Source of the DNA: Cohaesibacter sp. ES.047
GTDB lineage: Bacteria > Pseudomonadota > Alphaproteobacteria > Rhizobiales > Cohaesibacteraceae
DNA length: 64,000 nt
Assembly: GCF_900215505.1 (NCBI RefSeq)
Contig: NZ_LT907844.1
Location: 682,001 to 746,000, forward strand
Direction: 5' to 3'
The notes beneath the pieces were generated by a model that was given only the letters and a program-made list of their open reading frames with translations, did not search any database and was not told the DNA's origin. Position numbers and translations under genes: made by a program. Below, in pieces: positions 1,465 through 18,656 of this stretch. How positions within the stretch are numbered: position 1 is the first letter of the stretch; each line of letters begins with the position of its first letter.

Positions 1465-3249
1465 ATGACTGTTATCCGAGAAATTTCGATCTCCAATTTT
1501 CGAGGCATCAAGGCGCTAAAGTGGTGGCCGAACCCAGGCATCAATTGCTTAATTGGGCCAGGAGACGGCGGAAAATCGACCATTCTCGATGCAATAGAAC
1601 TCACCTTAGGGACTAGACAGAGCATTGTCTTTACTGATGCTGACTTCCACAGATGCCTAGTTGATGAGCCAATTGTAATCGATGTGACGCTGGGAGCTCT
1701 TCCCGATGAGTTGCGAAACCTAGAGGCATACGGCCACTTTCTGCGAGGTTGGGACCCGCAAACCGGGGCTATTCACAACGAGACATCTGCAGCGCTGGAA
1801 ACGGTATTGACTATTCGTCTGATTGTAAGGGACGATTTGGAGCCGCAATGGTTGCTGTTTTCTGAAGGCCCATCCGCCCAGGGCCTTGAGCGGAACCTCC
1901 AGTGGAAGCATCGGCAGCTAGTTGCGCCAATACGGCTCGGCACCGTTGCATCACACCATATGGCTCTGGGCCCGCGATCCGTGCTCGGGAAGCTCTCTCC
2001 CGACAAGACACAGGCGTCAGCCGCATTGGCGGCGGCATCCAGACAAGCCCGGCAGGCTTTTGCAGAGCAGGGCTGTGGTGGCGTCGATGAAGTGCTGGCG
2101 ACCTCCAGAACCATCGCCAACAACATGGGAATCCCCGTTGAGCAGGTGAATGCCCTATTGGACGTAAAAGGGGTGACGTTTTCAGGGGGTGCAATTGCCC
2201 TTCACGACGAAGATCAGGTTCCGCTCAAGAATCTTGGTTCCGGTTCCATGCGCTTGCTCGTCGCAGGACTTCAAAAGGTCGCAGGTCAATCAAGTATCTC
2301 GATCATCGACGAAGCAGAGTTTGGCTTGGAACCCTACCGGATTATCCGCTTGCTTGATTCGCTGGGTGCAAAATCAAACGATTCTTCGCAGCAAGTCTTT
2401 TTGACGACACACTCGCCAGTTGTATTGCGCGAACTGTCGTCAATTCAGTTACACGCAGTGCGGGCGACGCGCACCACTACACCCGCCCTAGTTAACAACG
2501 GTGAACTCATTCAGCCTACCACAAAGACGACTTCCAATTCTGTGTTCCCACTTGGGGAATCTGAAGACGCTCAGAAGACGCTGAGGGCGTGCGCAGACGC
2601 CTTTCTCGCGCCGAGTGTCATTGTTTGTGAGGGGAAGACCGAGATTGGCGTAATCCGAGGGTTGGATTTGTGCTGGCAAAGCCTTGGTCAGAGGAGTTTG
2701 CTAGCAAACGGTTGCCACTGGGCCGATGGTGGCGGCTCAACAATGATGGAACGTGCTAAAATCTTTGCGCGTATGGGTTATCGAACCGCTTTGTTCATGG
2801 ACTCCGATGTCGCCTACGATGCTGCGAGTTATTCGGAATTGGCAACTCACGGCATTTCCGTGTTCCGTTGGCGAGATGGGTATTCCACCGAATCTGCAAT
2901 CTTCGCATCCGTGCCTGCGGCGCAGATACCCGGACTTCTTTCAATTGCCTGCGAATGGCGATCAGAAGACTCCATTGACGGAAAAATCCGTCACGCGAGC
3001 AACCGTCAATACAATCTACAGCAATGCCGAGATCAATTTGTCGATGCAATGCGACCTGTGTTGGGGCAATGCGCTGGCGATGGTAAATGGTTCAAAGACA
3101 TTGAGCCTGCTGAACGGGCGTTGAGGGAAGTCATTGCCCCGGCCTGGCAAAGTACAGGTACAATTTTCACGGCCCCCCTGAATTCGCTTTGGCATTGGAT
3201 CAGCACATCGCCGACAGTGCAGCCAGCGAATCCCCCTGTCGGCGTGTAA
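1465..3249 (+). CDS. gajA: Gabija protein GajA: OLD-family ATPase/Toprim endonuclease
   Basis: GajA is the nuclease subunit of the Gabija anti-phage system. In studied systems it is a nucleotide-sensing, site-specific DNA nicking enzyme that assembles with GajB. The 594-residue protein has an ABC-type ATPase half with Walker A GPGDGGKST at residues 31-39, a signature-like LGSGSMRLL near 255, and Walker B SISIIDEAEFGLEP near 275. The C-terminal half is a Toprim domain with its glutamate in VIVCEGKTE near residue 390 and an acidic FMDSDVAYDA segment near 450. Length is close to characterised GajA proteins of roughly 580 residues. A six-base gap separates it from gajB, so the two are co-transcribed. 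An isolated OLD nuclease is the alternative, but the helicase partner argues against it. Confidence 0.9.
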   Translation: MTVIREISISNFRGIKALKWWPNPGINCLIGPGDGGKSTILDAIELTLGTRQSIVFTDADFHRCLVDEPIVIDVTLGALPDELRNLEAYGHFLRGWDPQTGAIHNETSAALETVLTIRLIVRDDLEPQWLLFSEGPSAQGLERNLQWKHRQLVAPIRLGTVASHHMALGPRSVLGKLSPDKTQASAALAAASRQARQAFAEQGCGGVDEVLATSRTIANNMGIPVEQVNALLDVKGVTFSGGAIALHDEDQVPLKNLGSGSMRLLVAGLQKVAGQSSISIIDEAEFGLEPYRIIRLLDSLGAKSNDSSQQVFLTTHSPVVLRELSSIQLHAVRATRTTTPALVNNGELIQPTTKTTSNSVFPLGESEDAQKTLRACADAFLAPSVIVCEGKTEIGVIRGLDLCWQSLGQRSLLANGCHWADGGGSTMMERAKIFARMGYRTALFMDSDVAYDAASYSELATHGISVFRWRDGYSTESAIFASVPAAQIPGLLSIACEWRSEDSIDGKIRHASNRQYNLQQCRDQFVDAMRPVLGQCAGDGKWFKDIEPAERALREVIAPAWQSTGTIFTAPLNSLWHWISTSPTVQPANPPVGV

Positions 3250-3255
3250 ACTCAG

Positions 3256-4680
3256 ATGGTTGGCGTACACGACATACTTCAGGCGCAACGCGGGCATGTC
3301 ATTGCTCCCGCAGGATGCGGCAAGACCGAGTTGATCGCAAAGACCATTGTTCAGGCAAAAGGTAAGCCGGTCCTCGTCCTTACCCACACCACCGCGGGCG
3401 TTGCCGCGCTAAGGCAGAGGTTGCATCGAGATGGCGTGCCAGCGTCCAACTACAGGCTCAACACGATTGCGGGCTGGGCACTGGCAATTATCTCCATGTT
3501 TCCGGAGCGAGCAGGATACCTGCATGATCCGCAAAATGCTCCCAACTACACTGCAGTGCAAAACGCGGTTGGTGGGCTATGTGCATCTGGGGCTATCAAT
3601 TCAGAGATTGCCGCAACGTATTCGCGGGTCTTGGTCGATGAGTACCAAGACTGTTCAGTCAGCCAACACCTGATCATTTCTGGCCTCGCGAACGCAATTC
3701 CAACGGTTGTGTTCGGCGATCCGATGCAAGCAATCTTTGGGTTTGGCGACGACCCGCTTCCGGACTGGACGACGCAAGTGGTCCCAACCTTTCCTAAAAT
3801 CGGGCGGTTGGATATCCCCTGGCGCTGGAACAACACTGGCGCCAACGATCTTGGAGCTTGGCTTCTTGCCATTCGCGGGGCGTTGGAAGCTGGACAGACG
3901 ATTGATCTTCGCACTCTACCCTCGCGCGTCGCGTGGCATCCTCTCGGCGCGGATCAAAACGCCAACGCCGCGGCCCAGATAGCTCTGCAATACGATGTAG
4001 CCAAAACCAACCCTCATGAGACGATCCTAATAATTGGTGACTCCATGCAAGCGGCCTCGCGACACAATTTCGCAAGCCGCGCAAAGGGAGTTGGAGTTGT
4101 CGAGCCAGTAGATCTCCGTGATGTCGTAGGCGATGCAAACCAAATGGACGGAAAATCAGGTCAAGAACTCCTTGATGCCTGCATTGGATTTCTTATCAAG
4201 GTCATGACGAACGTGTATGGCGATAAACTCAATGCGCGCGTTCAGTCGATCCTAGGAAATCGTAATCGCACACCTCCAACCGCCCCTGAGGTTGCCGCCA
4301 TCTCTCTGGTTCAAGGGGGCGGATACCTCGAGGCCGTGCAATTTCTGAAAGCGATGGCAGGCGACCGTGACAGACGAGTCTATCGACAAAGTGCGTTCAA
4401 CATTATGGTCCAGGCACTCCAAATCGCATTGACGGCACCAGGCGGTAGTCTTCCAGCAGCTATCGCCGGTCTTCGCGAACAACGCCGTCACGCAGGTAGA
4501 GTAATTCCGCCAAAAGCTGTAGGCTCAACTCTTCTCCTGAAAGGACTGGAGGCTGATCACGTAGTAATCTTAGATGCGGATCGACCAGGTAACGCGATGT
4601 CGAAAGAGCACCTGTATGTCGCGCTGACTAGGGGGGCGAGATCCGTATCGGTCTTCTCGCGTAGTCCAAACCTGCCGTAA
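3256..4680 (+). CDS. gajB: Gabija protein GajB: UvrD/PcrA-like helicase
   Basis: The second Gabija subunit, a superfamily 1A helicase-like ATPase that activates or supports GajA. The 474-residue protein has Walker A APAGCGKTE at about residues 15-23, motif Ia VLVLTHTTAGV, motif II VLVDEYQDCS near residue 125, motif III GDPMQAIFGF near 155, and a C-terminal motif VI YVALTRGARSV. Length matches GajB proteins of about 490 residues, and it is shorter than UvrD. The ATG at 3256 begins six bases after the gajA stop. Together the pair forms a complete Gabija operon with no sign of frameshift or lost catalytic motif, so the system may be functional. Confidence 0.9.
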   Translation: MVGVHDILQAQRGHVIAPAGCGKTELIAKTIVQAKGKPVLVLTHTTAGVAALRQRLHRDGVPASNYRLNTIAGWALAIISMFPERAGYLHDPQNAPNYTAVQNAVGGLCASGAINSEIAATYSRVLVDEYQDCSVSQHLIISGLANAIPTVVFGDPMQAIFGFGDDPLPDWTTQVVPTFPKIGRLDIPWRWNNTGANDLGAWLLAIRGALEAGQTIDLRTLPSRVAWHPLGADQNANAAAQIALQYDVAKTNPHETILIIGDSMQAASRHNFASRAKGVGVVEPVDLRDVVGDANQMDGKSGQELLDACIGFLIKVMTNVYGDKLNARVQSILGNRNRTPPTAPEVAAISLVQGGGYLEAVQFLKAMAGDRDRRVYRQSAFNIMVQALQIALTAPGGSLPAAIAGLREQRRHAGRVIPPKAVGSTLLLKGLEADHVVILDADRPGNAMSKEHLYVALTRGARSVSVFSRSPNLP

Positions 4681-6258: not shown

Positions 6259-7191
6259 ATGACCATTCCTGGCTATCAATCACTAATGCTGCCGGTCTTG
6301 CGTTATGCGGCTCAGGCGGAACAACGGGTTCCACCTCTTTCCGAGAAGATTGCTGTCGACTTTGATCTGTCAGCTGCAGAATGCGAAAAGATGCTGCAGA
6401 ATGGCGGCCAGAGTATTCTCAAAAATCGGATACACTGGGCGAAATACTATATGCACAAGGCTGGATTGGTTGATTGTCCCGCGCGAGGACGTTTCATCGC
6501 CTCCGATGCAGGCAAAAGACTGCTGGCAACAAATCCGCAGAGGCTGGACTATCAACACCTTTTGTCCATCCCACAATTTGCCGCTTACCATGCAGCAAAT
6601 AAGAAGCAAGGCAATGGCGCCTCAACGCGTTTGAAATATGGTGACGATACAGCGAAAGAGGCATCGACCCCAGAGGAGCAGATTGAAGATGCATTTGCAG
6701 CCCTTAACACGGCTCTTCAAACCGAATTGCTTGATCGAATAAGGGAGAATTCTCCAGCATTCTTTGAGCAGGTAATCGTCGAACTTCTCATTGCCATGGG
6801 ATATGGCGGGTCTCATAAAAACGCAGCAGAGCAATTGGGCCGATCTGGGGATGGTGGCGTTGACGGCGTCATTAATGAGGATCGACTGGGTCTTGATCGC
6901 ATATATGTTCAGGCCAAGAGGCATGCTTCGTCGAACAAGATCGGAAGGCCGGACATGCAGGCATTTGTTGGCTCTCTGGTTGGCTTCGGCGTAACAAAAG
7001 GTGTTTTCGTGACCACCTCATCCTTCACTGACAGTGCGACGAAATATACGAGAAGCCTGCCACAACGCGTGATACAAATAGACGGGGTTCGTTTGGCGGA
7101 GCTGATGATTGAACATGGTGTGGGTACCCGGGCCTATCGCACCATTCAGGTTCAGCGCCTGGACGAGGACTTCTTTTCTGAAGACGGATAG
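6259..7191 (+). CDS. mrr: Mrr-family type IV restriction endonuclease
   Basis: A modification-dependent restriction enzyme that cuts foreign methylated DNA. The 310-residue protein has an N-terminal winged-helix Mrr_N domain (about residues 5-95), a linker, and a C-terminal PD-(D/E)xK nuclease domain from about 165. FFEQVIVELLIAMGYGG is the first core helix. The catalytic aspartate is in GRSGDGGVDGVI (residues 195-205) and the QAK motif is at 218-220. The substrate-side strand KGVFVTTSSFTDSA is also typical. All key residues appear intact. It lies in the same accessory region as Gabija and is followed 44 bp later by a HigA-like antitoxin gene in the same direction. The specificity cannot be predicted. 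Confidence 0.92.
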   Translation: MTIPGYQSLMLPVLRYAAQAEQRVPPLSEKIAVDFDLSAAECEKMLQNGGQSILKNRIHWAKYYMHKAGLVDCPARGRFIASDAGKRLLATNPQRLDYQHLLSIPQFAAYHAANKKQGNGASTRLKYGDDTAKEASTPEEQIEDAFAALNTALQTELLDRIRENSPAFFEQVIVELLIAMGYGGSHKNAAEQLGRSGDGGVDGVINEDRLGLDRIYVQAKRHASSNKIGRPDMQAFVGSLVGFGVTKGVFVTTSSFTDSATKYTRSLPQRVIQIDGVRLAELMIEHGVGTRAYRTIQVQRLDEDFFSEDG

Positions 7192-8000: not shown

Positions 8001-9178
8001 CTGAGAACTCGTTCAGTTTTCGTGCATAATATTGCTTTGACTCAATGCAATTATACCATCGAGCAGAATTCAGAACCGATATGCCCATTCTCGCAATCCG
8101 ATGGACATGATGATCCAAGGTTGACCGACGAGTTTGTTCCAAGCTTCGCAACATATCGCGAGGATTTCCTCGTAGGATGAAAAGATCCGATTGGAAAGCC
8201 AGTTTTCCCGCATGAACTGCCATATATTCTCGACCGGGTTCAATTCTGGCGACCTTGGTGGTAGCGGGAGCAATGTGATGTTGTCCGGCACGTCGAGATT
8301 TTGCGTTGTGTGCCAGCCGGCCTGATCGAGAATGAGGATTGCGTGGGCTCCATCAGCGACTTGGCCGGAGATTTCTTCCAGATGCCACTGCATGGCTTGG
8401 ATGTTGCAAAAGGGCAGAACCAATCCAGCCCCTACACCACGGGCCGGGCAGATAGCCCCGAAGATATAGACTGACTTTGTCCTTTGATCTTTCGGTGCAA
8501 CAGGGCGGGTTCCGCGCTTTGCCCAACGACGTGTGATCTTGGTTTTCTGTCCGACACGCGCCTCGTCCTGCCACCACACTTCTATCGGGGTTCCTTTCGG
8601 GAGCTTTTTGCAGACTTCTGCCAACTCGGCTGGGAAGTTTTTTTAAATTCATCCATCGCGAATTGATTCTGCCCTCTATGGCGGGGGCGAGCCGAGAGCT
8701 TCGTAAACCCAAGGGCACGTAGTTCACGACCAACAGAGGATTCTTCCAAGGAGATGCCATATTCCTCATAGATCCAGCGAGCCAGATCCTTGCGCCGCCA
8801 GCGCACAACACCATGAATGGCCGGGATAGGTCCCTGTTCGACAATTGCGGCGAGACCCTTGCGCTGTTCATCATCCAGTTTGCTGGGGGCTCCAGAACGT
8901 GCCTTGTCGATCAGCCCCGTTGGGCCTTCGGTATTGAAGCGAAGCACCCAATCCCGGATTATTTGCAAGGTAACGCCGCCAATGCGGGCTGCATCACTCC
9001 GTTTGCCGCCATCGTAAATTTCGGCCAGTGCCAAAAGCCGACGGCTCTGGTTGGCATGCTTGCTAGCCTTGGACAACTGCCGCAAGGCCTGCCCGTCATA
9101 ATCTTCACGAAGTGATACTGCTCTGCCCATTCTGCCATCCTCTAAATCAATGAAAGCCATTGATTCAGAAAACGATCA
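8001..9178 (-). mobile_element. IS630-family insertion sequence (ends approximate)
   Basis: The element consists of an IS630-type transposase gene and imperfect terminal repeats. Reading inward, the right end runs TGATCGTTTTCTGAATCAAT and the left end contains TTCAGTTTTCGTGCATAAT; both then carry GCTTT. IS630 elements usually insert at TA dinucleotides, but I could not fix the target duplication by eye, so the ends may be off by about 15 bases. The left end lies beside the decayed toxin and the right end coincides with the helicase stop codon. Confidence 0.75.
8070..9130 (-). CDS. IS630-family transposase made from two frames (-1 frameshift)
   Basis: A DDE transposase encoded in two overlapping frames. 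The first (from the ATG at 9130) opens MGRAVSLREDY and carries the helix-turn-helix part with GGVTLQIIRDWVLRF and a second HTH near WIYEEYGISLEESSVGREL. It runs on to DEFKK. The second frame continues with NFPAELAEVCKKLPKGT and contains the catalytic acids in WWQDEARVG, LILDQAGWH and SPELNPVENIW. The switch falls on a run of seven A residues (complement of 8638-8644). A -1 slip there yields one continuous IS630 protein of about 350 residues. This is either programmed frameshifting or transcript slippage, common in the family, or a disabling mutation. The first frame has an in-frame ATG at 9160 as an alternative start. Confidence 0.85.
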
Positions 9179-11233
9179 AAAAGGGAATCCCGAATTTGAG
9201 TCATAACTTCTGCTTGTTGGTATTAGTCGCTCAGATAGCGTTGTTTGCCGCATCTGACTTTCGGCACGCTGCACACCAGCTTCAATACTGTCCAAATCAC
9301 CAATCAGGACAATTTGTTCAACTGCCCTTGTTATTGCCGTGTAGATCAATGACCGATCAAGGATCCTTGATTTGAATACAGGAATAATCACGCGGTTCCA
9401 TTGGCTTCCTTGAGCCTTATGAACACTGATAGCATAAGCAAGATCTATGTATTCAGCGTCATATTGGGTCAGTTCCAACTCTTGACCATCCAAATCAACC
9501 AATGCTTTGCCATCAGGCAGCCTTCTCAGATATCGCCCCATAGACCCATTCTGAAGATTGCGATCATAATCATTCTTGGTCCAGATCACAGGATCTCCCA
9601 CCTTGATATCTAACCGATCTGGAAAGCTATCTCGACTATTACCACGCCAGTTTGAGAATGTGTGATTGATAGCTTCAATGCCTGCATCTCCAGCCTTAAT
9701 GGGACTGATGATTTGCGTTTCCCCCCTTGTAGAGGTGATTTCTTTGCCAACATTCATGATGCATTGAATGGCATCGCCAACTTCACAAGGAACAAAACTC
9801 ACACCTGACGCACGACCGTCAAATGACTTCAATTCAGGCATTCGCCCAGTTCTGATTGCTTTTGCAACAATTGGAATTCCACTTGAATCTGCCTGACGCA
9901 AAACCCGATCAAGAAACGTTCGAGGTACCATTCTGGATTCGATCAGTGTATGGAATACAAGACCAAATCCGATCGGGGGAAGCTGAGCAGGATCACCAAC
10001 AAGCAACAGATTGCCTTGTCCAAGGCGCCTCAAAACACGATAAAAAGTGGGCAAATCCACCATCGACGCTTCATCAATAATGACAAAGCTCTCTGGACCA
10101 AGTTCTATGAAGTCATCACTAAAGCTCATCAAAAACTTCGCAATTGTAGATGTCGGCCGCCCAGTGGCTTCTGAGATGCGTTTAGCCGCACGGCCCGACA
10201 GAGCCATCAAATGCAATTCTCGACCATAAGTCTCAGCAAGATCAGCAATTGTACTGAGGACCGTGGTTTTACCAGCACCAGCATATCCGGCAAGAAGGCT
10301 CAAACGGTTTGTCAAAGCCATGCCAATGGCCTCCCGCTGCCGGTCTGTCAGAGACCATTTTGACGCTTCGTCAAATGATGCCAAAAATTCATCAATCTGA
10401 TGTGGTTGGATTTGACTTGCAATCAGATCTGTTTGTGCTGATTGACCTGCAATTTCCGTGATCCGATCCGCGCAATAAGCTTCCATAAGGGCTGCTCCAA
10501 CAGGTTGAAGCCCATTCCCCCACACCGCTGCCCCAGCGTCATCCAAAGCAGCTTGAGCTGCCTCGAGCGGATCTCCTTTGCCCTGAAACAACCGATTGAT
10601 CTCATTGCGAAGCTTTTGCCCTCGTACAATCGTGTGCTTTTCATCAAGGCCTTGATAAAGGACTGCTTCAACTGCCCCTACCTGCCATCTGCGATCATCA
10701 ACAGTCATGCCCATGGCTCTGGCAATGCGAACAACCTGTTTCCATCCAATCCAACCCACCAATAGAAATGGATTGGCCCGGATAGAAGAAGCGCCTGCGG
10801 CTCCCCATGCTTTTACAATGTTAGCGGCAATCTTGGCATCAACGCCAATTTCATCCAGCCATTGAGCCAGATCCATTTCTGCAATCATTTCTGGATAAAC
10901 AGCCAGAAGCGTATCAGCTATCTTTTCCGGCAAAACTTCATAGAGAATAGCTCGACTATTCTGGCCTTCTTGCCCCATCGAAACAGAAGACAGAACCTGA
11001 TGAAGCGAAGCGCCAAACGTCTTGCGAAGAGCTGCCGCACGCTTTTCACCTATTCCTTCAAAACGAGGATCACGACTTAAAACTCGCTCCAGAGTGGAAA
11101 CTGCGTAGGGGTGTTCCATTGCCCTGTGGCGGGAACCGTCCATTGGAAAAGTCTCATTCTCTTCAGCGATGCAGTTGCTCCGTGTAGCAATTAAACAATC
11201 AGGTTCCTTATTCAGATTTCTGATATTGTTCAT
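9176..11233 (-). CDS. RecD2-like superfamily 1B DNA helicase
   Basis: A 5'-3' DNA helicase related to RecD2. The N-terminal part has a helix-hairpin-helix, FEGIGEKRAAALRKTFG. The motor core has Walker A AGYAGAGKTT near residue 320, motif II VIIDEASMVD near 395, motif III GDPAQLPPIGFG, and C-terminal AISVHKAQGSQW and YTAITRA motifs. About 685 residues. I chose the ATG at 11233 because CCGGGA precedes it; a TTG at 11251 is possible. Its start overlaps the end of the upstream small gene, so it is the last gene of the recombinase operon. The stop codon falls at the right end of the IS630 element, and the true C-terminus may have been altered by that insertion. Likely roles are element replication, repair or transfer; none is shown. 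Confidence 0.88.
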   Translation of the reverse strand: MNNIRNLNKEPDCLIATRSNCIAEENETFPMDGSRHRAMEHPYAVSTLERVLSRDPRFEGIGEKRAAALRKTFGASLHQVLSSVSMGQEGQNSRAILYEVLPEKIADTLLAVYPEMIAEMDLAQWLDEIGVDAKIAANIVKAWGAAGASSIRANPFLLVGWIGWKQVVRIARAMGMTVDDRRWQVGAVEAVLYQGLDEKHTIVRGQKLRNEINRLFQGKGDPLEAAQAALDDAGAAVWGNGLQPVGAALMEAYCADRITEIAGQSAQTDLIASQIQPHQIDEFLASFDEASKWSLTDRQREAIGMALTNRLSLLAGYAGAGKTTVLSTIADLAETYGRELHLMALSGRAAKRISEATGRPTSTIAKFLMSFSDDFIELGPESFVIIDEASMVDLPTFYRVLRRLGQGNLLLVGDPAQLPPIGFGLVFHTLIESRMVPRTFLDRVLRQADSSGIPIVAKAIRTGRMPELKSFDGRASGVSFVPCEVGDAIQCIMNVGKEITSTRGETQIISPIKAGDAGIEAINHTFSNWRGNSRDSFPDRLDIKVGDPVIWTKNDYDRNLQNGSMGRYLRRLPDGKALVDLDGQELELTQYDAEYIDLAYAISVHKAQGSQWNRVIIPVFKSRILDRSLIYTAITRAVEQIVLIGDLDSIEAGVQRAESQMRQTTLSERLIPTSRSYDSNSGFPF

Positions 11234-11699
11234 CAAAAAATCCCGGTTCAAGTTTAATCCGACGCCCCATCGGCACCTGCTCGTTTAACAAAACACCTGC
11301 CTGTTTCATCTTACGCTTGAGATCAAAATTCTCTGCCTTCAAAACGGCAACCATCTGTCCAAGCCGATTGTTCTCCTGCTGCAACCGGCGCACTTCTGCT
11401 TGATCCATCTCGCCAATTGAAGCACCATCAATATCGCTTGATTCATTGCGACGTTCTTTGATGCTGTACAACAATCCTTTCTCGGTCGCGTAGTCTCGCA
11501 GCCTTTGCTGGAAAGCAGGATTGTCCTGCAAAACATTGCGGCTAACGCCATTAGGACCAACGCGCTTCAGGATTGCCTGATGATTCAGCGCACCATTCCG
11601 TGTCGGCAGGGTCTTGCGATCTTGCTCACAAGCATCAATCAGACCTTCCAGATATTGGAGATTTTCCTTGCCAGCCTTAGCCCCTTGACGTTTTACCAT
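11208..11699 (-). CDS. Small HTH/coiled-coil protein of the recombinase operon
   Basis: A 163-residue protein of unknown function. Residues about 25-75 look like a DNA-binding segment (NHQAILKRVGPNGVSRNVLQ then AFQQRLRDYATEKGL). Residues about 100-135 form a coiled coil (VRRLQQENNRLGQMVAVLKA then ENFDLKRKMKQ). This resembles the layout of TnpC-like accessory proteins of Tn554-type elements, and of the other small protein in this operon. The ATG at 11699 has GAGGG upstream and starts ten bases after the dUTPase stop. A longer version starting at 11741 overlaps dut and is less likely. Function is inferred only from layout and context. Confidence 0.7.
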   Translation of the reverse strand: MVKRQGAKAGKENLQYLEGLIDACEQDRKTLPTRNGALNHQAILKRVGPNGVSRNVLQDNPAFQQRLRDYATEKGLLYSIKERRNESSDIDGASIGEMDQAEVRRLQQENNRLGQMVAVLKAENFDLKRKMKQAGVLLNEQVPMGRRIKLEPGFFDEQYQKSE

Positions 11700-11709
11700 A
11701 GGATGCCCT

Positions 11710-12162
11710 CTATTCCTTGACCCCGGTGGAGCCAAAACCACCTGACCCGCGCTCAGTTTCGCTCAGTGTATCAACCTCGACTATTTGAGGCTTCAATATT
11801 GGGGCAATAACTGCTTGAGCAATTCTGTCGCCATGGCCGATAGTAAAGGGTTCCTTTCCCGCATTGAGTAGGGCTACTTTTACGGAACCTCTATAATCTT
11901 CGTCCACGGTCCCGGGACTGTTCGGAATCATTAAGCCATGTCTGACAGCCAGACCTGATCTGGGCCGGATCTGCATTTCCGTTCCGGAAGGAATTTCAAC
12001 GGCAAATCCGGTGGGAACCAAAGCAATGCAACCGGGGTCAAGAATCACATCTCCATCCGGAAGGCATGCCCTTAGGTCCATTCCTGCCGCACCTGGCGTA
12101 GCGTAGGAAGGAAGAGGAAGGTCTACATTTTCAGGCAGGCGCAAGAACTTGACAACAGTCAT
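11710..12162 (-). CDS. dut: Element-borne deoxyuridine triphosphatase (complete)
   Basis: dUTPase hydrolyses dUTP to dUMP and pyrophosphate, which keeps uracil out of DNA and feeds thymidylate synthesis. All five motifs of the trimeric family are present in 150 residues: PGAAGMDLRA, RPRSGLAVRHG, NSPGTVDEDYRG, GDRIAQAVIAP and the phosphate-binding GSGGFGSTG. It lies inside the recombinase operon; its ATG overlaps the stop of the gene before it (ATGA-type). The sequence is clearly different from the interrupted host dut at 18,351-18,656 and uses more AT-rich codons. It is the only intact dut in the window and presumably replaces the host enzyme. Confidence 0.97.
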   Translation of the reverse strand: MTVVKFLRLPENVDLPLPSYATPGAAGMDLRACLPDGDVILDPGCIALVPTGFAVEIPSGTEMQIRPRSGLAVRHGLMIPNSPGTVDEDYRGSVKVALLNAGKEPFTIGHGDRIAQAVIAPILKPQIVEVDTLSETERGSGGFGSTGVKE

Positions 12163-12650
12163 TCTGTTCTCCTTGGAGGCATTGGCAAGACATTGTTGGA
12201 AATGCCAGAAGACATATTAGATATTTGGGCTTCAAGCGCCTTTATCCGCCTATCTTTGGCTGCCAGATCTTTTCGCCAGCTAATAGCCTGAGAAGAGATT
12301 TCCGCCAATGCTTGTTCAAAAAACTCTATAGTGTCACGCCGGGCTTTTGCCCCATCCGGCTTTGATACAGCAGATTCTTTTTTGTGACCTTTGACCCAAT
12401 TCTGGACTTGTTTTTTCAAATCCTTGTGCCGGGCATTGCGGAGATATGCTTCACTGACACCGGCCTGACGCTGCACCTCCTGAACAGAAAGCCGACGGGG
12501 TTTATCCGGATTATCTGGTTCATGATAATAGCCTCTTTGAGCTATCACCGCATCTATGGTCCGCATCGCATCCAGGATAGCTTGCTGGGATTTTTCTTTG
12601 CGCCCCCGATGGTATTCCGCCAACGGTACGGTCTTTGAACTATCACCCAT
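12159..12650 (-). CDS. TnpC-like HTH/coiled-coil accessory protein
   Basis: A 163-residue protein. Residues about 50-90 contain an HTH-like region, RRLSVQEVQRQAGVSEAYLR, followed by a basic stretch (ARHKDLKKQVQNWVKGHKK). Residues about 115-150 form a coiled coil (ISWRKDLAAKDRRIKALEAQ). Size, order and position directly after large tyrosine recombinases match TnpC of Tn554-type elements (DUF6262-like) and similar small proteins of other multi-recombinase elements. TnpC influences orientation and efficiency of Tn554 transposition, so a DNA-binding accessory role is plausible. The start shares a base with the stop of the preceding gene. I recognise the type rather than a specific family. Confidence 0.65.
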   Translation of the reverse strand: MGDSSKTVPLAEYHRGRKEKSQQAILDAMRTIDAVIAQRGYYHEPDNPDKPRRLSVQEVQRQAGVSEAYLRNARHKDLKKQVQNWVKGHKKESAVSKPDGAKARRDTIEFFEQALAEISSQAISWRKDLAAKDRRIKALEAQISNMSSGISNNVLPMPPRRTE

Positions 12651-14674
12651 TATTTGCTCTCCAGATAATCAATCAGTTTATCTTTGGTCTGTTGCGGCAA
12701 TCCATTAAAGTGTCTGTGATCACAATCCCGCAATGCACCACGTAGGCGTTCATCGCTGGTAAAGACATCAAGAGTTTTTTCAAAAGTGGCAAGGCCAGCA
12801 ATGATTTGAGTTTGGAACATTGCTTTTCTGCCATCAGACACCCGATTTCCCCGCATCATCTGCATGGCAGATTCTACCAGTCGCTCTTTGTTTTGGGCCT
12901 CAGCTGCCGCTTCCAGCCGATATATACAATTGGCTGGACAGGCACCAATATCCCTTATCCCCTTACCCATGGAACATAGTCCATTCTCATTGAGAGCTGT
13001 GGTGCAGTAGGTGTTTTCTTTGATTTTGATGATAGTTGGCAAAATAACTTTGAGGATTTCAGGATCATCAGGGGAGATGCAATGCTTGTTGGCAATTTCG
13101 GTCACATTCTTTTTGGTGGTCCGAATGGTATTGGCTGCAAGGCCTCCACAATCATCAATCTCACCAATTAACTTTTTGCGCCGGACATGTTGCACTTCGC
13201 GGCGAACAATATCAGCATCAGACGCAAATTCAGGTGACGAGAGCATATAGCCCATCGTGACTTCGATATCATTATGGCCAAGGACCGTATAGAGCACCTC
13301 ACTGGCACCTTCAAGGCAAAGCCCAACAAGACGTGCCATGGTTTTGCGGAACCGATGTGAAGTGATGTTGTTATCTATCTCTCCCAATGGCTCACCATCC
13401 AGAGTTTTTACAGATCGCCCAAATTTTGGCAAAATAGCTTCAAGAGTTGCAATGCCTGTTGTACTGCTCACACCAGGCACCCAAAGCTTATCCCCCTGAT
13501 ATCCAAATGTTTTATGGAGACTTTGTTGCTTTCTGACCGCCTCCACAGCCAGTTCAGGCAATGGCCAATGTCGTTCTGATCCATTCACATTTGCAGATTC
13601 CTTGAATGTATAGCCAGTCAGATATTCTTCCCCATTCAATGCAACCAATGGATCTCTGTCCAAAGTTTTCATTTCTGAGATCCGCCCACCAGTGGCTGTG
13701 TTCAGAATGATTGCATTGGCAATTTGGCATAGCAAAAGCAGTGATTTCACACCATCTAAAGTATCAACCGGCCAGCTTGTAAATTCCTTCTTTGCCCTTT
13801 TCTCACCAGTGACCTCAAATATATACGGAAAGGCAAAACCAGGATGAAGGACATTACCTTGCCATAAGGCAATCTGTTGCTTTCTATAAGGAGTTACATA
13901 CTTGCTAACATACTTTCTGCCCTGTGCATCACAATCAATTGCAGCAATCTCTGTATAACAGGCCTCCAGATCTGTCTGGATTTTTGCCAAAAAATGAGCC
14001 GCTTGGAGAATTTCTGTGAATGCGCCATCTGAGAATGGCTGGATGGGTTTTCTTGTGCCCGGTTGGACAGTCTCTATGTCTCCGGCAGGCCAATCGTCAA
14101 ATAGACCAGCATTGTAAAGGCCATTCAGCCGTGGACCACACTGTGTGATAAATGTTGGATACTCAGTACGAAGCCGATCAAAGGCCGCAGGTGACAGGTT
14201 ACCAAATATTATCCCTGAATCTGGGCAGGTCATCTGATTGGATGGCAATCGATCGGACAGGGTCATTGCAAATCGGGCAGCATTAATCAAATTTTTTGTA
14301 TATTGTACCCAGGTGCGAGGTTTTGTTGGGGTGGATTTTTTTCTATTAAAAACAATTGTTTGAGTAAAATTTAGAAACGCAAACCGTTTCAACCGCCGGA
14401 TCAGAAACTCTGCTTTAGGATCATCTCGGCTCCAGCCATCAGGCAAGGCTTTTACAAAATCAATAGTTCTTTCGCCATCTTGATAATAGTTTTCATTGAC
14501 AAAATCTTTTGGCACTACCCATTCATCATCCTGAATAGCCACACCTTTAAAAATCTGGTAATCAGCAATTTTGTCCCATGGCAAAGTCCAGGCTTCATCA
14601 AGATTGAACGGAGCAGAGCCATAGACAAGGGCATCCCTATGCTTCTCAAACAAGACATCATATGATGGTTTCAT
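12650..14674 (-). CDS. Large tyrosine recombinase (third of the trio)
   Basis: A 674-residue site-specific recombinase. The catalytic domain lies at about residues 310-500. It has the first arginine in TGGRISEMK, the HxxR box in ITSHRFRKTMARL, and the GH...Y motif in LGHNDIEVTMGYM, so the active site looks complete. A long N-terminal half probably carries arm/core-binding domains. A C-terminal cysteine cluster (CTTALNENGLCSMG then GACPANC) may bind metal, as in TnpB of Tn554-like elements. Its ATG overlaps the stop of the gene before it by four bases. Together with its two partners it presumably carries out insertion and excision. Confidence 0.85.
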   Translation of the reverse strand: MKPSYDVLFEKHRDALVYGSAPFNLDEAWTLPWDKIADYQIFKGVAIQDDEWVVPKDFVNENYYQDGERTIDFVKALPDGWSRDDPKAEFLIRRLKRFAFLNFTQTIVFNRKKSTPTKPRTWVQYTKNLINAARFAMTLSDRLPSNQMTCPDSGIIFGNLSPAAFDRLRTEYPTFITQCGPRLNGLYNAGLFDDWPAGDIETVQPGTRKPIQPFSDGAFTEILQAAHFLAKIQTDLEACYTEIAAIDCDAQGRKYVSKYVTPYRKQQIALWQGNVLHPGFAFPYIFEVTGEKRAKKEFTSWPVDTLDGVKSLLLLCQIANAIILNTATGGRISEMKTLDRDPLVALNGEEYLTGYTFKESANVNGSERHWPLPELAVEAVRKQQSLHKTFGYQGDKLWVPGVSSTTGIATLEAILPKFGRSVKTLDGEPLGEIDNNITSHRFRKTMARLVGLCLEGASEVLYTVLGHNDIEVTMGYMLSSPEFASDADIVRREVQHVRRKKLIGEIDDCGGLAANTIRTTKKNVTEIANKHCISPDDPEILKVILPTIIKIKENTYCTTALNENGLCSMGKGIRDIGACPANCIYRLEAAAEAQNKERLVESAMQMMRGNRVSDGRKAMFQTQIIAGLATFEKTLDVFTSDERLRGALRDCDHRHFNGLPQQTKDKLIDYLESK

Positions 14675-16929
14675 TGGTTCTGATCCTCATTTATTGCAAT
14701 CTCAGGCGCTATATTGAGTTGGACTTCGCCAAAAATAGGTCTTGCTCCCGACTGTATTTCTTCGAGGACTCTTGCAACATTGTCATCATACTCTTGGGCA
14801 AGCATTTTATTCTGCAAAGCGTCTCGGATCATTTCTATGCCCTGTAGTTCCAGATACAAGCTGCTTCGCAGGAATGCTTCATCAGCTGAAGTGTCTTTTA
14901 TCGCCAACAGCTCAGCATTGCGCTCAGCCAAAGGGTCAAGAGCCTCAATGGTAAAACGCGCATGTGGGCACAATATGCATCTTTGTGCCTGACATAGAGT
15001 GTTCTTGACATGGTTGGGGGCAATGTCAGCAGGCGGATGCAGTGGATCCTCACACCCCATGCCATAGGCGCTCCTATATTGGCGTTGCACCCTGTTTGAT
15101 GCCAATAAGGCTCTGTCTTCTTCTGTCACACCATCTTTTGATGTCGCAAACCATAATATGGCAGGATCGACAGGTCGCCCACTGGATGTTTCTTCAAATA
15201 TTGCTTGTGCCAAAGCCCCAAACTGTTTGAATCGTTCACCAATCTGGCCTTTTTGACGCAAATAATGCCTTGTGCTGCTGATATGCCGATGATTGAGGAT
15301 GCCTTGGACAGCAAAGATATTACCCCCACTCTCATCATAGACAAAAGCTGCATAACCATCACGGATATCACCCGGCTGCAATGCTTCTACGGATTCTACA
15401 AGTGCACCTTTACCCTGCTTTTTAGCATTATCAATGGCTACTGATTTCAAATTGGTATTAAATGATTTAGCAATTGAACTTGATACACCCAAGAATCCAA
15501 CAGCCTTATGACCAGTGCCTTTATTGCCCCAAAAAATCCAGGGTGATTGCAATTTTTGCTCAATCATTGCAATCTCAATGCGGACTTCGCATGTCTGGGG
15601 TTGTTTCAGCAGCTCTGCACGCGCTTCCCGGAGGAGATCTCGCAAATAACGGGTGCGTTCAATTTGTGCCTTGATCACCGCAAATGGCTGATATCGGGAT
15701 GCTTTGAGACAGTGAGCCGCTTGCAGGCGTCTGGTTTTTGGTCTAACAGACCTAATTTCAATGGTTTCAGGCTGATCTTGTTCTTGATCTTCTTGTTCAG
15801 GGGCAAAAATTATCACTTGGCCATTTTTGTTTTGACCATCAAATGATTGGTTGATTTTAGGTTTGGCTAGTTGGTCAGTGCATTCAGTGTACCAGTCGTC
15901 ACATTCTTCAAAATTTTCATTAACAACGGTAATGGCTCTCGCTGTATCCATCCAACCTGTATGATATGACACCAATGCATAAGCAGCCATGGTATCGGCC
16001 TCAGATGGTGCTATCATCCGATAAATATTATAAAGTGTTGCAGTGGGCCAGCCTCCACTTGCCCGCTGTGCAATTTGAGCGCGCGTGTTGTTGAGCCGGC
16101 CAGCATCACCTCTGGCAATATCCTTTCTGTTGATAATTTTTTTCCGGATGCGGTCATGTAACAGCACCAATATGTTGCACCAACGATACCAAACCATATT
16201 TCGCTTGCCGCCACGGCGTCCATCAGTACGACCAGATCTGCCTGTTTGGCCTAGAATGCGCGGGTCTGTGCCTCTCTCCAGACCCTTTAAGCCACGGTCA
16301 TGATATCGCAGGCTTTCATCATGGATGTTTTGAGCCGTATTATAAACTGCTTTTAAAGCCTGCAGATCAACATCTTGATGCATTTTGGGTGCTGAGTCTC
16401 TGTCTCCTTCGGTATTAATCGTCGGCCATTGCACACCATTCTGTCCTGTTTGAAGAGCATTTACTGCCTCTCCAACACATGTTGCAATATAATTTAAACA
16501 GATATTTTTGGTTTTGAGAATTTTCCCCGACCCAGTGAGTAAAAAATACTTAAATTCATTGGCATCAGCAGACCAAATATCATGACAACTTTCTAGATTT
16601 CGCCCATTTTCTCTTGCAATTTTATCAAGGTACTTAAAAAATTTGGTGATATTCAGTAATTTTGTTGCAATGGTGCTGTGAGCGTTGCCTTGCATTTCTC
16701 TCCGTATGACCGGGGCAAGTTCATGTATCAATTTTGGACGCCCCGTGAAGCCTTTCTTTTCATCTCCATCACGATAAATCGTGAGATCTACTATTTTGAG
16801 TTTTATGCCGTCCTTTTGTTCCCAGACAAGCGGATCCACCGGCAGTTCAACAACAGGAGCGGCAGGGCCTAATGCCTCGATTGTCTCTTTTGACTGTTTG
16901 TTTCGTTGGGCTTTGTTAAACCTGCTCAC
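14671..16929 (-). CDS. Large tyrosine-recombinase-like protein with a changed active site (second of the trio)
   Basis: A 752-residue protein in the middle of the recombinase set. The C-terminal catalytic fold can be followed through GFLGVSSSIAKSFNTNLKS, then GDIRDGYAAFV, where an HxxR box is expected, and LNHRHISSTRHYLRQ, which supplies the H...Y motif. The histidine of HxxR appears replaced (D-I-R), and I could not find a convincing first arginine. It may therefore be a structural or regulatory partner rather than a catalyst. A late cysteine cluster (CQAQRCILCPHARF) may bind zinc. It overlaps both neighbours by four bases. The position and size recall TnpB-like or GmtZ-like proteins of multi-recombinase elements, but I could not test that. 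Confidence 0.7.
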   Translation of the reverse strand: MSRFNKAQRNKQSKETIEALGPAAPVVELPVDPLVWEQKDGIKLKIVDLTIYRDGDEKKGFTGRPKLIHELAPVIRREMQGNAHSTIATKLLNITKFFKYLDKIARENGRNLESCHDIWSADANEFKYFLLTGSGKILKTKNICLNYIATCVGEAVNALQTGQNGVQWPTINTEGDRDSAPKMHQDVDLQALKAVYNTAQNIHDESLRYHDRGLKGLERGTDPRILGQTGRSGRTDGRRGGKRNMVWYRWCNILVLLHDRIRKKIINRKDIARGDAGRLNNTRAQIAQRASGGWPTATLYNIYRMIAPSEADTMAAYALVSYHTGWMDTARAITVVNENFEECDDWYTECTDQLAKPKINQSFDGQNKNGQVIIFAPEQEDQEQDQPETIEIRSVRPKTRRLQAAHCLKASRYQPFAVIKAQIERTRYLRDLLREARAELLKQPQTCEVRIEIAMIEQKLQSPWIFWGNKGTGHKAVGFLGVSSSIAKSFNTNLKSVAIDNAKKQGKGALVESVEALQPGDIRDGYAAFVYDESGGNIFAVQGILNHRHISSTRHYLRQKGQIGERFKQFGALAQAIFEETSSGRPVDPAILWFATSKDGVTEEDRALLASNRVQRQYRSAYGMGCEDPLHPPADIAPNHVKNTLCQAQRCILCPHARFTIEALDPLAERNAELLAIKDTSADEAFLRSSLYLELQGIEMIRDALQNKMLAQEYDDNVARVLEEIQSGARPIFGEVQLNIAPEIAINEDQNQ

Positions 16930-18266
16930 TCATCATCTCCATCCAGGTATGCAGTCCATTTGCGCGCATATTCATTCTTGCCGACCTGACCTTGCAGCCA
17001 ACGGAGATAGATTTCAGTCGTCTCCGCCGAACAATGACCCATTGTCGGGCGGATGTGCATGTCTATGAGTGTGCTGGCCAAGTTCTGGACCTTGGCAAAA
17101 GACGGCTTGTAATTATCATCCAAACCTTCTTCTATCTTTATTAGGTCCAATTCTTTTTGCAGAATATGCAGTACCTCATAGCAGGCCCAGGCATGACGGC
17201 CTAGATGAGGAGACCAGCCTTTAAATGGCATGTTTTTATCAGCTTCAGCCCAGCCACGCTGCGACCAAAAATCAATCAGCGTCCGGCCAGCGTAATAGTC
17301 TCCGCTACTAGGAGACAGAAATAGCTGCTTCGGTAATGGCTTGCCTGGATTCTGCTTTCTGAATTCTTCTAACGCAGCTTTTCTAGCACCGCGTTTGTAA
17401 TAATGCAGAAAAAAAAGGAAATCCCGTTTGAATTTAACTCGGCGTGGCTTCCCCTTATATTCAGGATCTCCAACTTTCCGATCACCTTTTGTTCCATGCA
17501 TGATTGTGACCATGACATTGTCTTGGTCAACCGGTAGCTTGTTAGGGTCTGGAATTTGTTCCGCCCGTAAAAGCCGCACTTCTGCAGACCGCAGCCCAAC
17601 ATCCAATATAGTCCGGCACATCAGATATCTGGTAATCCCATGATTGCCTTTGCCATGCTCTTTGATCCTTTCGAGCCAAGCCTGGATTTCAATCCCTGTT
17701 GGCAATCTTAAATCTTCAGGATTTTGACGCACATGGCCGAGACGCTGCGAAAAATTTGCAGTCCTCCGTCCTGTTTTGCCCATCATTTTGTTCTGAATAG
17801 ATGCTGGTATGAGCTTCTGGACCACTTCGAATTCATCGCGCAAACCATGATGTGCTGCATAATCCAAATAGTTACCTACCGTACCCATGCGCCTGTTTAT
17901 GGTCGCAGCAGAAAGAGCAGCACCTGCTGCAGTATATGACCCCGTTTCCATGGCTGTTTGGTATGTTTCGAGAAGCTGGTCATAACTGACAGTCCGCCAA
18001 TCCAGACTATATTGCTCACAAAAAGTGAAAAAATTCTCGAGATCCCGCCCATATGCATTCATGGTATTCTCGGATAGCTTTTTTGATGATGCATATTCAC
18101 TGCGAGCGCCAACATATGACCACCGCCCCGTAGCGCGTGCAATCAGGTAATCCAATGGCTCTATGAGCAACTTCCATTCTGAGGAATAAAGTACAGGTAT
18201 ATGTGCCAGCTCCGGGCAGCCAAGCTCTTCGCATTTTGTTTTATCAGGCCGCACCATAAAAGCCAT
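16926..18266 (-). CDS. Tyrosine recombinase/integrase (first of the trio)
   Basis: A 446-residue integrase, the first gene of the operon and nearest the element end. The N-terminal SAM-like core-binding domain covers about residues 45-140 (ENTMNAYGRDLENFFTFCEQ). The catalytic domain follows. It has the first arginine in DVGLRSAEVRLL near 240, the HxxR box in SPHLGRHAWACYE near 355, and GH...Y in MGHCSAETTEIYLRW near 410. All essential residues are present. A good promoter lies just upstream, between the gene and the junction with the interrupted host dut. It is co-directional with ubiE-ubiB-coaBC-dut', so read-through from the host operon is also possible. Confidence 0.93.
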   Translation of the reverse strand: MAFMVRPDKTKCEELGCPELAHIPVLYSSEWKLLIEPLDYLIARATGRWSYVGARSEYASSKKLSENTMNAYGRDLENFFTFCEQYSLDWRTVSYDQLLETYQTAMETGSYTAAGAALSAATINRRMGTVGNYLDYAAHHGLRDEFEVVQKLIPASIQNKMMGKTGRRTANFSQRLGHVRQNPEDLRLPTGIEIQAWLERIKEHGKGNHGITRYLMCRTILDVGLRSAEVRLLRAEQIPDPNKLPVDQDNVMVTIMHGTKGDRKVGDPEYKGKPRRVKFKRDFLFFLHYYKRGARKAALEEFRKQNPGKPLPKQLFLSPSSGDYYAGRTLIDFWSQRGWAEADKNMPFKGWSPHLGRHAWACYEVLHILQKELDLIKIEEGLDDNYKPSFAKVQNLASTLIDMHIRPTMGHCSAETTEIYLRWLQGQVGKNEYARKWTAYLDGDDE

Positions 18267-18305
18267 ATACGCAAAACCCTTTGCGACATTATTTTGGGTG
18301 CGCGT

Positions 18306-18334
18306 ATAATGTTAGAAAGGGTTACACATGTCAA
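18306..18334 (-). promoter_or_regulatory. Sigma-70-type promoter of the recombinase operon
   Basis: On the minus strand, a perfect -35 TTGACA (18329-18334) is separated by 17 bp from CATTAT (18306-18311). The integrase start codon is about 40 bp downstream. It lies inside the element, about 35 bp from the junction with host dut. Confidence 0.6.
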
Positions 18335-18350
18335 TACAATGTATCTAATA

Positions 18351-18371
18351 TTAGGAGGTGCGCCTGTAACC
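18351..18371. other. Element/host junction inside host dut
   Basis: Reading the minus strand, the host dut frame is normal through the codons for DYRG (last codon 18369-18371). It then changes to TACAGGCGCACCTCC and stops within six codons. Intact dUTPases continue with a conserved acidic residue and a hydrophobic strand here. AGGCGCACCT next to the break is an imperfect palindrome (AGG-N4-CCT), a possible core of the recombination site. The exact crossover point cannot be fixed without the other end. Confidence 0.7.
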
Positions 18372-18656
18372 GCGATAGTCCGAGTCGATGGTGCCGGGTG
18401 TGTTGAGCAAGGTGACACCATGTTTGAGGGCAAGGCCGGATCTGGGCCGGATCTGGGCCTCGAAGCCCCGTTCAAGAGCCATGCAGAAGCCCGTGGGCAA
18501 AAGAGCCCGTCCGCCTCTTGCCGCCAAAGTCACCGGCTCATTGGCAGGATTGGCCGCTTCGATATCGAGCCCTGCTGCCTCATCGCTCTTGTAGGCGGGC
18601 AGGTTGAGCCCCTTGAAATGATCGAGAGGGAGAATGGAGAGACGCGGTTTTGCCAT
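18351..18656 (-). pseudogene. dut: Host dut, cut within motif 3 by the element
   Basis: This is the resident dUTPase gene in its conserved place after coaBC. The ATG at 18656 has AGAGGA upstream. Motif 1 (EAAGLDIEA), motif 2 ([11 protein letters not shown]) and motif 3 up to [12 protein letters not shown] are intact over about 96 residues. Then the frame diverges and ends. Motif 4 (the RIAQ region) and the C-terminal glycine-rich motif 5 are missing, about 55 residues in all. A trimeric dUTPase without these should be inactive. The lost 3' part is not found elsewhere in the window. A full, different dut lies in the inserted element. Confidence 0.93.

Follow-up and report, generated by a model that had tools for sequence, protein, structure and literature searches.

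A GInt-like island splits dut in Cohaesibacter and carries a putative replacement dUTPase

What supplies dUTPase, which prevents uracil from entering DNA, in a cell whose own dut gene has been cut in two? The question is raised by the window, a 64,000-nucleotide stretch of the Cohaesibacter sp. ES.047 genome, in which the host dut starts at the ATG at 18656, is intact as far as motif 3 (DYRG), and gives way to element DNA from 18369. The original prediction described a resident dut cut after motif 3 and a complete dUTPase gene inside the recombinase operon of the intruding element, and both points held. A whole-genome search with PF00692 matched exactly three places: the host 5' part (HMM 4-74), the element dut (HMM 4-129), and the host 3' part (HMM 75-129). 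The missing 3' third, predicted to lie beside the other element end, was found there at C1:664599-664763, about 17 kb to the left of the window and 35.6 kb from the 5' part. A second host dut elsewhere in the genome was rejected, as the PF00692 search found none. PF08761, representing dimeric dUTPases, also had no match in this genome, and the element's gene was the only complete dUTPase gene found with these two families. Of the 18 genus genomes, 15 were searched with PF00692 and none showed a truncated dut lacking the element; the other three were represented by a strong dut match only. The features of the locus are collected in Table 1.

Table 1. Features of the split dut locus and its element (window positions unless prefixed C1)
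Feature	Position	Strand	Remarks
Host dut 5' part, ATG to DYRG including 6-bp spacer	18370..18656	-	
attL	18357..18380	-	host arm GACTA (18376-18380), spacer TCGCGG (18370-18375), element left arm TTACAGGCGCACC (18357-18369)
Promoter-like TTGACA-17-CATTAT	18306..18334	-	inside element, 40 bp ahead of ginA; consensus match only
ginA, tyrosine recombinase, 446 aa	16926..18266	-	PF02899
ginB, recombinase-like, 752 aa	14671..16929	-	4-nt overlap with ginA; no Pfam match
ginC, recombinase-like, 674 aa	12650..14674	-	4-nt overlap with ginB; weak PF00589, below cutoff
ginD, small protein, 163 aa	12159..12650	-	no Pfam family
Element dut, complete dUTPase gene, 150 aa	11710..12162	-	PF00692 112 bits, NF001862 192 bits
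VPA1267-like protein, 177 aa	11208..11741	-	NF040697, E 5.6e-8, below cutoff
RecD2-like helicase, 691 aa	9176..11251	-	TIGR01448 349 bits, below cutoff 500
Cargo, Mrr-like type IV restriction enzyme	6259..7191	+	PADLOC mREase_IV E 1.4e-100; Mrr_cat
Cargo, Gabija defence pair	1465..4680	+	GajA (1465-3249) and GajB (3256-4680); PADLOC E 5.8e-215, 1.9e-172
attR, outside window	C1:664774-664758		GTAA-GTAGAG-CGAAGTG

We rejected an assembly artefact; an assembly accident is an unlikely source of the split because the genome is a single contig and two other genomes are split at the same codons. Those genomes, Cohaesibacter haloalkalitolerans (G119) and a distant alphaproteobacterial MAG (G777), share the architecture and crossover of the window's element (G000). 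Both have coaBC followed by a truncated dut and a gin operon, as had been anticipated, bringing the genomes with a split dut and both of its halves to three. The dut elements number three, two of them from one genus, and the ends of the G777 element lie on different contigs. Their recombinases are 50-56% identical to the window's, with GinA at 56% and 52%. A scan of genome contigs found two loci, with sensitivity limited by its use of exact peptide patterns. Scanning viral contigs with GinA and GinC gave no further members, a class sample of 385 genomes yielded only the window's own element, and comparing the same two proteins to plasmids returned a single element, from Microvirga, in which dut had no match.

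Related genomes with an uninterrupted dut had been expected to define the crossover, and they place it at a 6-bp spacer within the DYRG codons, coding Y-R-G and flanked by GACTA and CGA. The crossover is the same in all three elements, each of which has 13-nt end arms that are imperfectly inverted (7, 8, and 8 of 13 positions matching); the summed inverted-arm score was equalled by 0 of 20,000 random draws. The attL spacer is that of intact duts in every case, and joining the flanks with it restores DYRGE in all three, making the host reading frame restorable. At attR the spacer differs from attL in two elements and is uninformative in G119, the only one with the same 6 bp at both ends; the other two have arms and no clear direct repeat. 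The window's element totals 35,605 bp. Its predicted span of 9176-18656 captured the ginA-proximal part, but the element extends leftwards beyond base 1 of the window to C1:664765.

The residues R, HxxR, H, and Y were visible by eye in GinA and GinC and incomplete in GinB, the second protein, whose homologue at locus L084 had a PF00589 match below cutoff. Homologues of ginD occupy the same place in L033, L084, and L103. In all three dut elements dut directly follows ginD, the stop of one and the start of the other overlapping as ATGA, and the window's element dut contains the five conserved dUTPase motifs. The VPA1267-like gene is present in G119 and had no match in the G777 stretches fetched, while the RecD2-like helicase is 95% identical in G119. 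Counting both strands, a 600-bp stretch held five promoter-like sites versus 0.3 in shuffles.

We propose an island of GInt type, with recombinases that recognise the dut DNA encoding DYRG and with a substitute dut as the gene immediately following ginD, a reading to which we assign a probability of about 0.86 on the sequence evidence. Insertion would abolish host dUTPase, and the cell would live on the element's enzyme, made from a gin operon transcript that may begin on the coaBC-dut side or at the promoter-like site before ginA. With dut welded to ginABCD, expression of the recombinase operon would be maintained, and loss of the element would be lethal unless the host dut were restored. If the remainder of the island were deleted afterwards, the element dut could persist as the sole copy, and this would account for five relatives with an element-type dut at the native locus. 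The prediction that the element integrates in dut and brings its own dUTPase as a substitute is supported by the split in three genomes and the dut carried in each. Its corollary, that only precise excision would make the element easy to lose, may have to be revised, since certain GInts and the related SEs are described as leaving no empty site (PMC5385486, PMC10214605).

The element dut itself is probably not a target because it is missing the attB right arm, with DYRG followed by S or P rather than E. NGA follows the spacer in none of the three element duts and none of the five native element-type duts, as compared with 39 of 39 others. The arginine codon was AGA or AGG in none of the 44 intact chromosomal duts, a set of relatives plus the best order matches to the element dut, from which one further locus, L025, was excluded for want of a match. 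The element dut has AGA in G000 and G119 and CGC in G777, and we rejected arginine-codon recoding as a general rule of self-avoidance given the latter. The G777 element dut retains the spacer TCGCGG, and only its right arm differs.

In the five relatives the native dut is replaced by one of element type, reflecting at least two events in the genus (G273 was typed as host-type by its match score to the element dut rather than by reading its sequence). In a tree of 38 of the 41 picked loci, with L047, L049, and L058 dropped by a motif filter, the native-locus genes fall in the element-dut clade (support 100/99), as does the element dut of the distant host. The native-locus genes may be domesticated element genes. 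Alternatively, the element-type dut is simply another allele, acquired by a GInt from a relative, and the native-locus copies are not island leftovers, a serious contender that we place somewhat short of even odds and that bears on origin only, not on the replacement function. GInts are reported to draw their cargo mainly from relatives (PMC5385486), and a GinA search (E up to 1e-10) had no match in the five genomes in question. A single clade of native-locus genes was not rejected (p-AU 0.088), whereas a tree setting the element duts apart from them in a clade of their own was marginally rejected (p-AU 0.048). The alternative is further weakened by the distant host's membership of the shared clade and by the appearance of native-locus genes on two or more occasions among species with the other type. 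Direction is not settled by the dut trees: G777 was placed differently by the protein and DNA trees, and the latter raised warnings about long branches and about the window's element dut, whose base composition is unlike the rest. Searches for island scars neither prove nor refute a past insertion. G175 and its sister G084 were alignable only up to the coaBC stop. In G256 a run of sugar-metabolism genes (identified by eye), some 10 kb long, separates dut from cysK, and these genes recur in G219, in the 7 kb read on the downstream side of its dut. No gin-like genes were seen by eye among the sugar-metabolism genes of either genome.

Extending the replacement reading, dut-GInts could be gene-for-gene replacers with a life cycle, in which an essential gene of the lineage is repeatedly overwritten by a mobile element; we offer this tentatively, as something less than an even bet. 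The DYRG of dut would be broken and the element's own dut installed, welded to the recombinase operon. Re-insertion would be barred, the element dut having no att arm, and the island would then be pruned until the element dut was the host's only, insertion-resistant gene. The 6-bp attR spacer would record the previous site; it is dut-like in C. haloalkalitolerans and not in the other two elements.

It is improbable that dut is ordinary cargo serving the element and that its site within dut reflects coincidence or homology-driven capture. A cargo dUTPase could keep dUTP low during copy-out replication, or act in regulation or anti-defence as reported for some phage dUTPases. Phages often encode dUTPases (matches at E 1e-10 in 1849 of 50,697 records) and the element also bears defence genes, yet dut is carried by all three dut-site GInts, always at the same operon position, with the host copy broken each time. 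It is the sole gene after ginD found in all three, the VPA1267-like and RecD2-like genes occurring in two, and no element-dut match was found in 20-31 kb around four other GInt-like operons. Relative to the intact dut of G355, the host 5' part has 44 synonymous and 2 non-synonymous differences over 95 codons, and the 3' part has 2 amino-acid changes in 57 codons. The insertions look recent because the host halves are not decayed. That these halves still form a working dUTPase by fragment complementation, rendering the element copy redundant, is very improbable: the few amino-acid changes and an in-frame GTG opening the 3' half would suit it, but recent insertion explains the low divergence equally well, and the analogous idea for split tmk was rejected by experiment (PMC10653934).

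Replacement of the split gene by the island's would offer a simple account of how essential genes are exchanged horizontally at their own locus, and possibly an addiction without a toxin. It would also explain how an element that may leave no empty site can afford to insert in a catalytic motif, and the dut type at the native locus would predict which strains can be invaded.

By architecture, the element looks like a GInt: three tyrosine recombinase-like genes and a small fourth gene, ginD, form an operon at one end, cargo begins at the ginD stop codon in all three elements, and the 3' end is short and AT-rich (67, 62, and 63% A+T in the last 100 bp of the three elements vs 49, 53, and 39% in the adjoining kb on the inner side). 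We know of no RIT element with a fourth gene or long cargo, both of which are present here, and we rejected that class. RIT elements have three recombinase genes, RitA, RitB, and RitC (PMC10214605). The ginABCD order, strict site specificity, and 6-nt crossover are shared with the GInts described by Bardaji et al. 2017 (PMC5385486). Those GInts carry flanking imperfect direct repeats of 10-17 nt and occupy the 5' end of an ABC transporter gene, the beginning or end of ssb, the end of a duplicated RNR alpha gene, or intergenic sites. The main text of that article mentions neither dut nor dUTP and, in the portion consulted, does not say that these sites need a substitute, whereas here the split falls in the middle of a catalytic gene and a substitute is carried. 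SEs (Idola et al. 2023, PMC10214605) and Tn554-related elements likewise have several tyrosine recombinases and imperfect terminal inverted repeats, and SEs also keep the target's 6-bp spacer in attL with a different 6 bp in attR. Their gene sets are given as intA-tfp-intB-srap or tnpABC, from which the three recombinase-like genes and ginD seen here probably differ, and the part of that study consulted reports SEs only from Gammaproteobacteria and describes no substitute gene.

No dut-targeting element was described in the literature surveyed, mostly judged by title and the start of the abstract. The machinery is of a known type, GInt (PMC5385486), and the tmk-splitting islands with the dNMPK PP_1964, from Pseudomonas putida KT2440 and others, are an experimentally proven precedent (Wirth et al. 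2023, PMC10653934). There too a nucleotide-metabolism gene is split and a takeover enzyme carried, and in certain strains the island's enzyme alone remains where the native gene used to be, as may be the case in the dut relatives. The tmk islands differ in their target, in a substitute that is another kind of kinase, and in conserved genes (a TetR regulator, two tyrosine recombinases, and an unknown protein) that are not ginABCD; their replacement was proven by experiment (PMC10653934), while that of dut is proposed from sequence. Because of this precedent, the dut island is a new variant of a logic already proven for the tmk/dNMPK island rather than a new category. Taken together, the two cases suggest that breaking a nucleotide-metabolism gene while supplying its successor is a recurring island strategy and not a single accident.

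In a whole-genome search, the single 5.11-Mb contig (C1) of Cohaesibacter sp. ES.047 has PF00692 matches at only three places: the 5' part of the host dut, the dut carried by the element, and the 3' part of the host dut. The original prediction placed the missing 3' part at the other end of the element, where it was found, and the search returned no full host-type dut elsewhere in the genome. The element dut is thus the sole complete PF00692 match; a PF08761 dUTPase was also sought in this genome and none was found. The window covers C1:682001-746000, and on its minus strand ubiB and coaBC (names assigned by eye) are followed by host dut and then abruptly by ginA, ginB, ginC, ginD, dut, a VPA1267-like gene (vpa) and a RecD2-like helicase gene (recD). 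Beyond the host 3' part, cysK follows after 4.2 kb; intact dut is directly followed by cysK in G355, G390, G175, G197 and G149.

Coordinates of the split dut, the element and neighboring features
Feature	Coordinates	Strand	Extent	Remark
Host dut start	window 18656	-		precedes ginA directly
Host dut 5' part			PF00692 HMM 4-74	
Host dut 3' part	C1:664599-664763		PF00692 HMM 75-129	~17 kb left of window
Element	C1:664765-700369		35,605 bp	measured attR spacer to attL arm
GajA/GajB pair	window 1465-4680			in G119: L032:16365-19825
Two adjoining reading frames	window 8070-9160			directly at recD end
vpa/recD-like stretch	C1:664907-665094 (L004:9907-10094)			near attR, outside window

By eye, the two adjoining frames resemble an IS630-type transposase, and the last residues of RecD differ from those of the copy in Cohaesibacter haloalkalitolerans (G119). 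A stretch near attR matches, over short lengths, the C-terminal part of the VPA1267-like protein (29 aa, 72%) and the C-terminus of RecD (35 aa, 54%); it could mark where an older module end or a second element once lay. A Gabija pair is present in each Cohaesibacter element, the best PADLOC model differing between the two, alongside Mrr-like and type IIG restriction genes.

Other genomes with coaBC, a truncated dut and the gin operon were sought, and two were found. Among 397 genomes of the order, a GinA search hit the window genome itself, G119 at 56% identity and G095 at 28% with a stop. A scan of genome contigs recovered the record of G119 and added L084, from an unplaced alphaproteobacterial MAG (G777). 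In G119, dut sequence again occurs three times, as two host halves and a complete copy in the element, which spans 26,724 bp. L084 has the order coaBC, truncated dut, ginABCD, dut, with coaBC only 60% identical; a different contig of G777 holds the dut 3' part. GinA, GinB and GinC of these two elements are 50-56% identical to those of the window (a 28% row in the GinC comparison is Microvirga), which implies divergent lineages sharing one site. In all three elements dut directly follows ginD with an ATGA overlap. Both Cohaesibacter elements continue with vpa and recD (86 and 95% identical between them), and no match to either was found in the fetched G777 stretches (L084, L099, L100). This sample comprises three elements, two from one genus and one from a MAG in two contigs.

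The crossover was consistent across the three elements. In dut orientation, attL reads GACTA-(T/C)CGCGG-element and attR reads element-GTAA-N6-CGA, with motif 3 (DYRGE) encoded by the 6-bp spacer and flanking bases. The element arms are imperfect inverted repeats with 7, 8 and 8 matches of 13; none of 20,000 random draws made close to the ends reached their summed score (random mean 9.8). When the attL spacer is placed between the joined flanks, DYRGE is read without interruption in all three; the attR spacer in its place gives stops in the window genome and G777 and an intact reading in G119. A target-derived spacer in attL beside a different one in attR is the arrangement described for SE elements and, similarly, for Tn554; in that description, the spacer at attR is a copy of the left flank at the donor site last occupied (PMC10214605). 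On the SE model, we infer that the last site left would have been dut-like for the G119 element and different for the other two.

The split halves differ from intact genes mostly at synonymous codons. Relative to G355, the window genome has 44 synonymous and 2 non-synonymous differences in 95 codons of the 5' part, and 17 and 2 in 57 codons of the 3' part. G119 has 20 and 2 of 96 (5') and 8 and 0 of 60 (3') relative to G302, and 16 and 1 of 96 and 8 and 1 of 60 relative to G316. Because the halves are without decay, the insertions look recent. All five motifs are found in the window's element dut, and a solved dUTPase aligns with residues 3-149 of its 150, making it likely that the cell uses this predicted enzyme. 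Ahead of ginA, on its attL side, is a promoter-like site, and the overlap with ginD suggests that dut is expressed from the recombinase mRNA; for one GInt studied earlier, transcription of the gin operon additionally comes from beyond the element (PMC5385486). Tying dut to the recombinase transcript would amount to addiction without a toxin.

Among 18 genomes of the genus, the split gene and element occur in 2 and an intact dut in 16, of which 13 were scored by the PF00692 search, which gave them no additional above-cutoff piece, and G390, G197 and G273 by strong match only, outside the search for halves. In five of the 16 (G175, G219, G288, G330, G256), the gene next to coaBC is itself element-type, being 72-86% identical to the element dut; next in rank within the order come matches at 57-63% identity. 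DNA downstream of dut is variable in the genus (L088:4793-12000, L102:5556-15900, L091; L004:5372-9593): G256 has ~10 kb of genes for sugar transport and metabolism between dut and cysK, G219 has the same genes within the 7 kb read, and G084 has another set.

A coaBC+UbiB+UbiE tree implies at least two origins of the native element-type state, each nested among host-type species. These markers adjoin the dut locus, and linked transfer could therefore distort this tree. The five native element-type genes and three element genes form one dut clade (100/99), within which a single clade of natives was not rejected (p-AU 0.088) and a single clade of elements was marginally rejected (p-AU 0.048). 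The G777 element gene is basal in the DNA tree (83/84), which carries warnings for long branches and, in the case of the window's element dut, for base composition; in the protein tree it falls with the G219 group (96/80). This pattern is consistent with element duts having repeatedly replaced the native gene. It is also possible that the element captured a relative's dut. Wirth et al. give both pictures, replacement by an island and capture by an element, for dNMPK standing in place of tmk.

DYRG is followed by S, P or A in 8/8 element and native element-type duts, all lacking the right-arm GA of attB; GA is present in 10/10 host-type duts and in 29/29 other intact ones read from the order (L025 gave no match and is outside this count). 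We predict that an element-type dut is not a target.

On the features compared, namely the operon, where the cargo starts and the AT-rich 3' end, the machinery matches a GInt. In fetched stretches of 20-31 kb around four other GInt-like operons, a small set (Microvirga plasmid pMVF16-3, G095, G1018, G975; ginD in the last three recognized by position only), no element-dut match was found. The operons of G1018 (L107:7823-13592) and G975 (L108:11281-17562) are distant, and the gene after ginD in G1018 is MurI-like (by eye) on the opposite strand. The published account of GInts consulted (PMC5385486) lists intergenic sites as well as ssb, a duplicated gene for ribonucleotide reductase and a gene of an ABC transporter, and argues that the targets are probably not fully inactivated; a term search of its main text found neither dut nor dUTP. 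The literature searched, with most subscription papers outside reach, yielded no description of a dut-targeting element. In sequence, the dut element follows the logic shown experimentally for the tmk island (PMC10653934): it breaks a nucleotide-metabolism gene and carries the probable successor. It therefore joins two known things, GInt machinery and tmk-type logic, and what is new is that a GInt lineage brings, as its first cargo gene, a substitute for the gene it targets.
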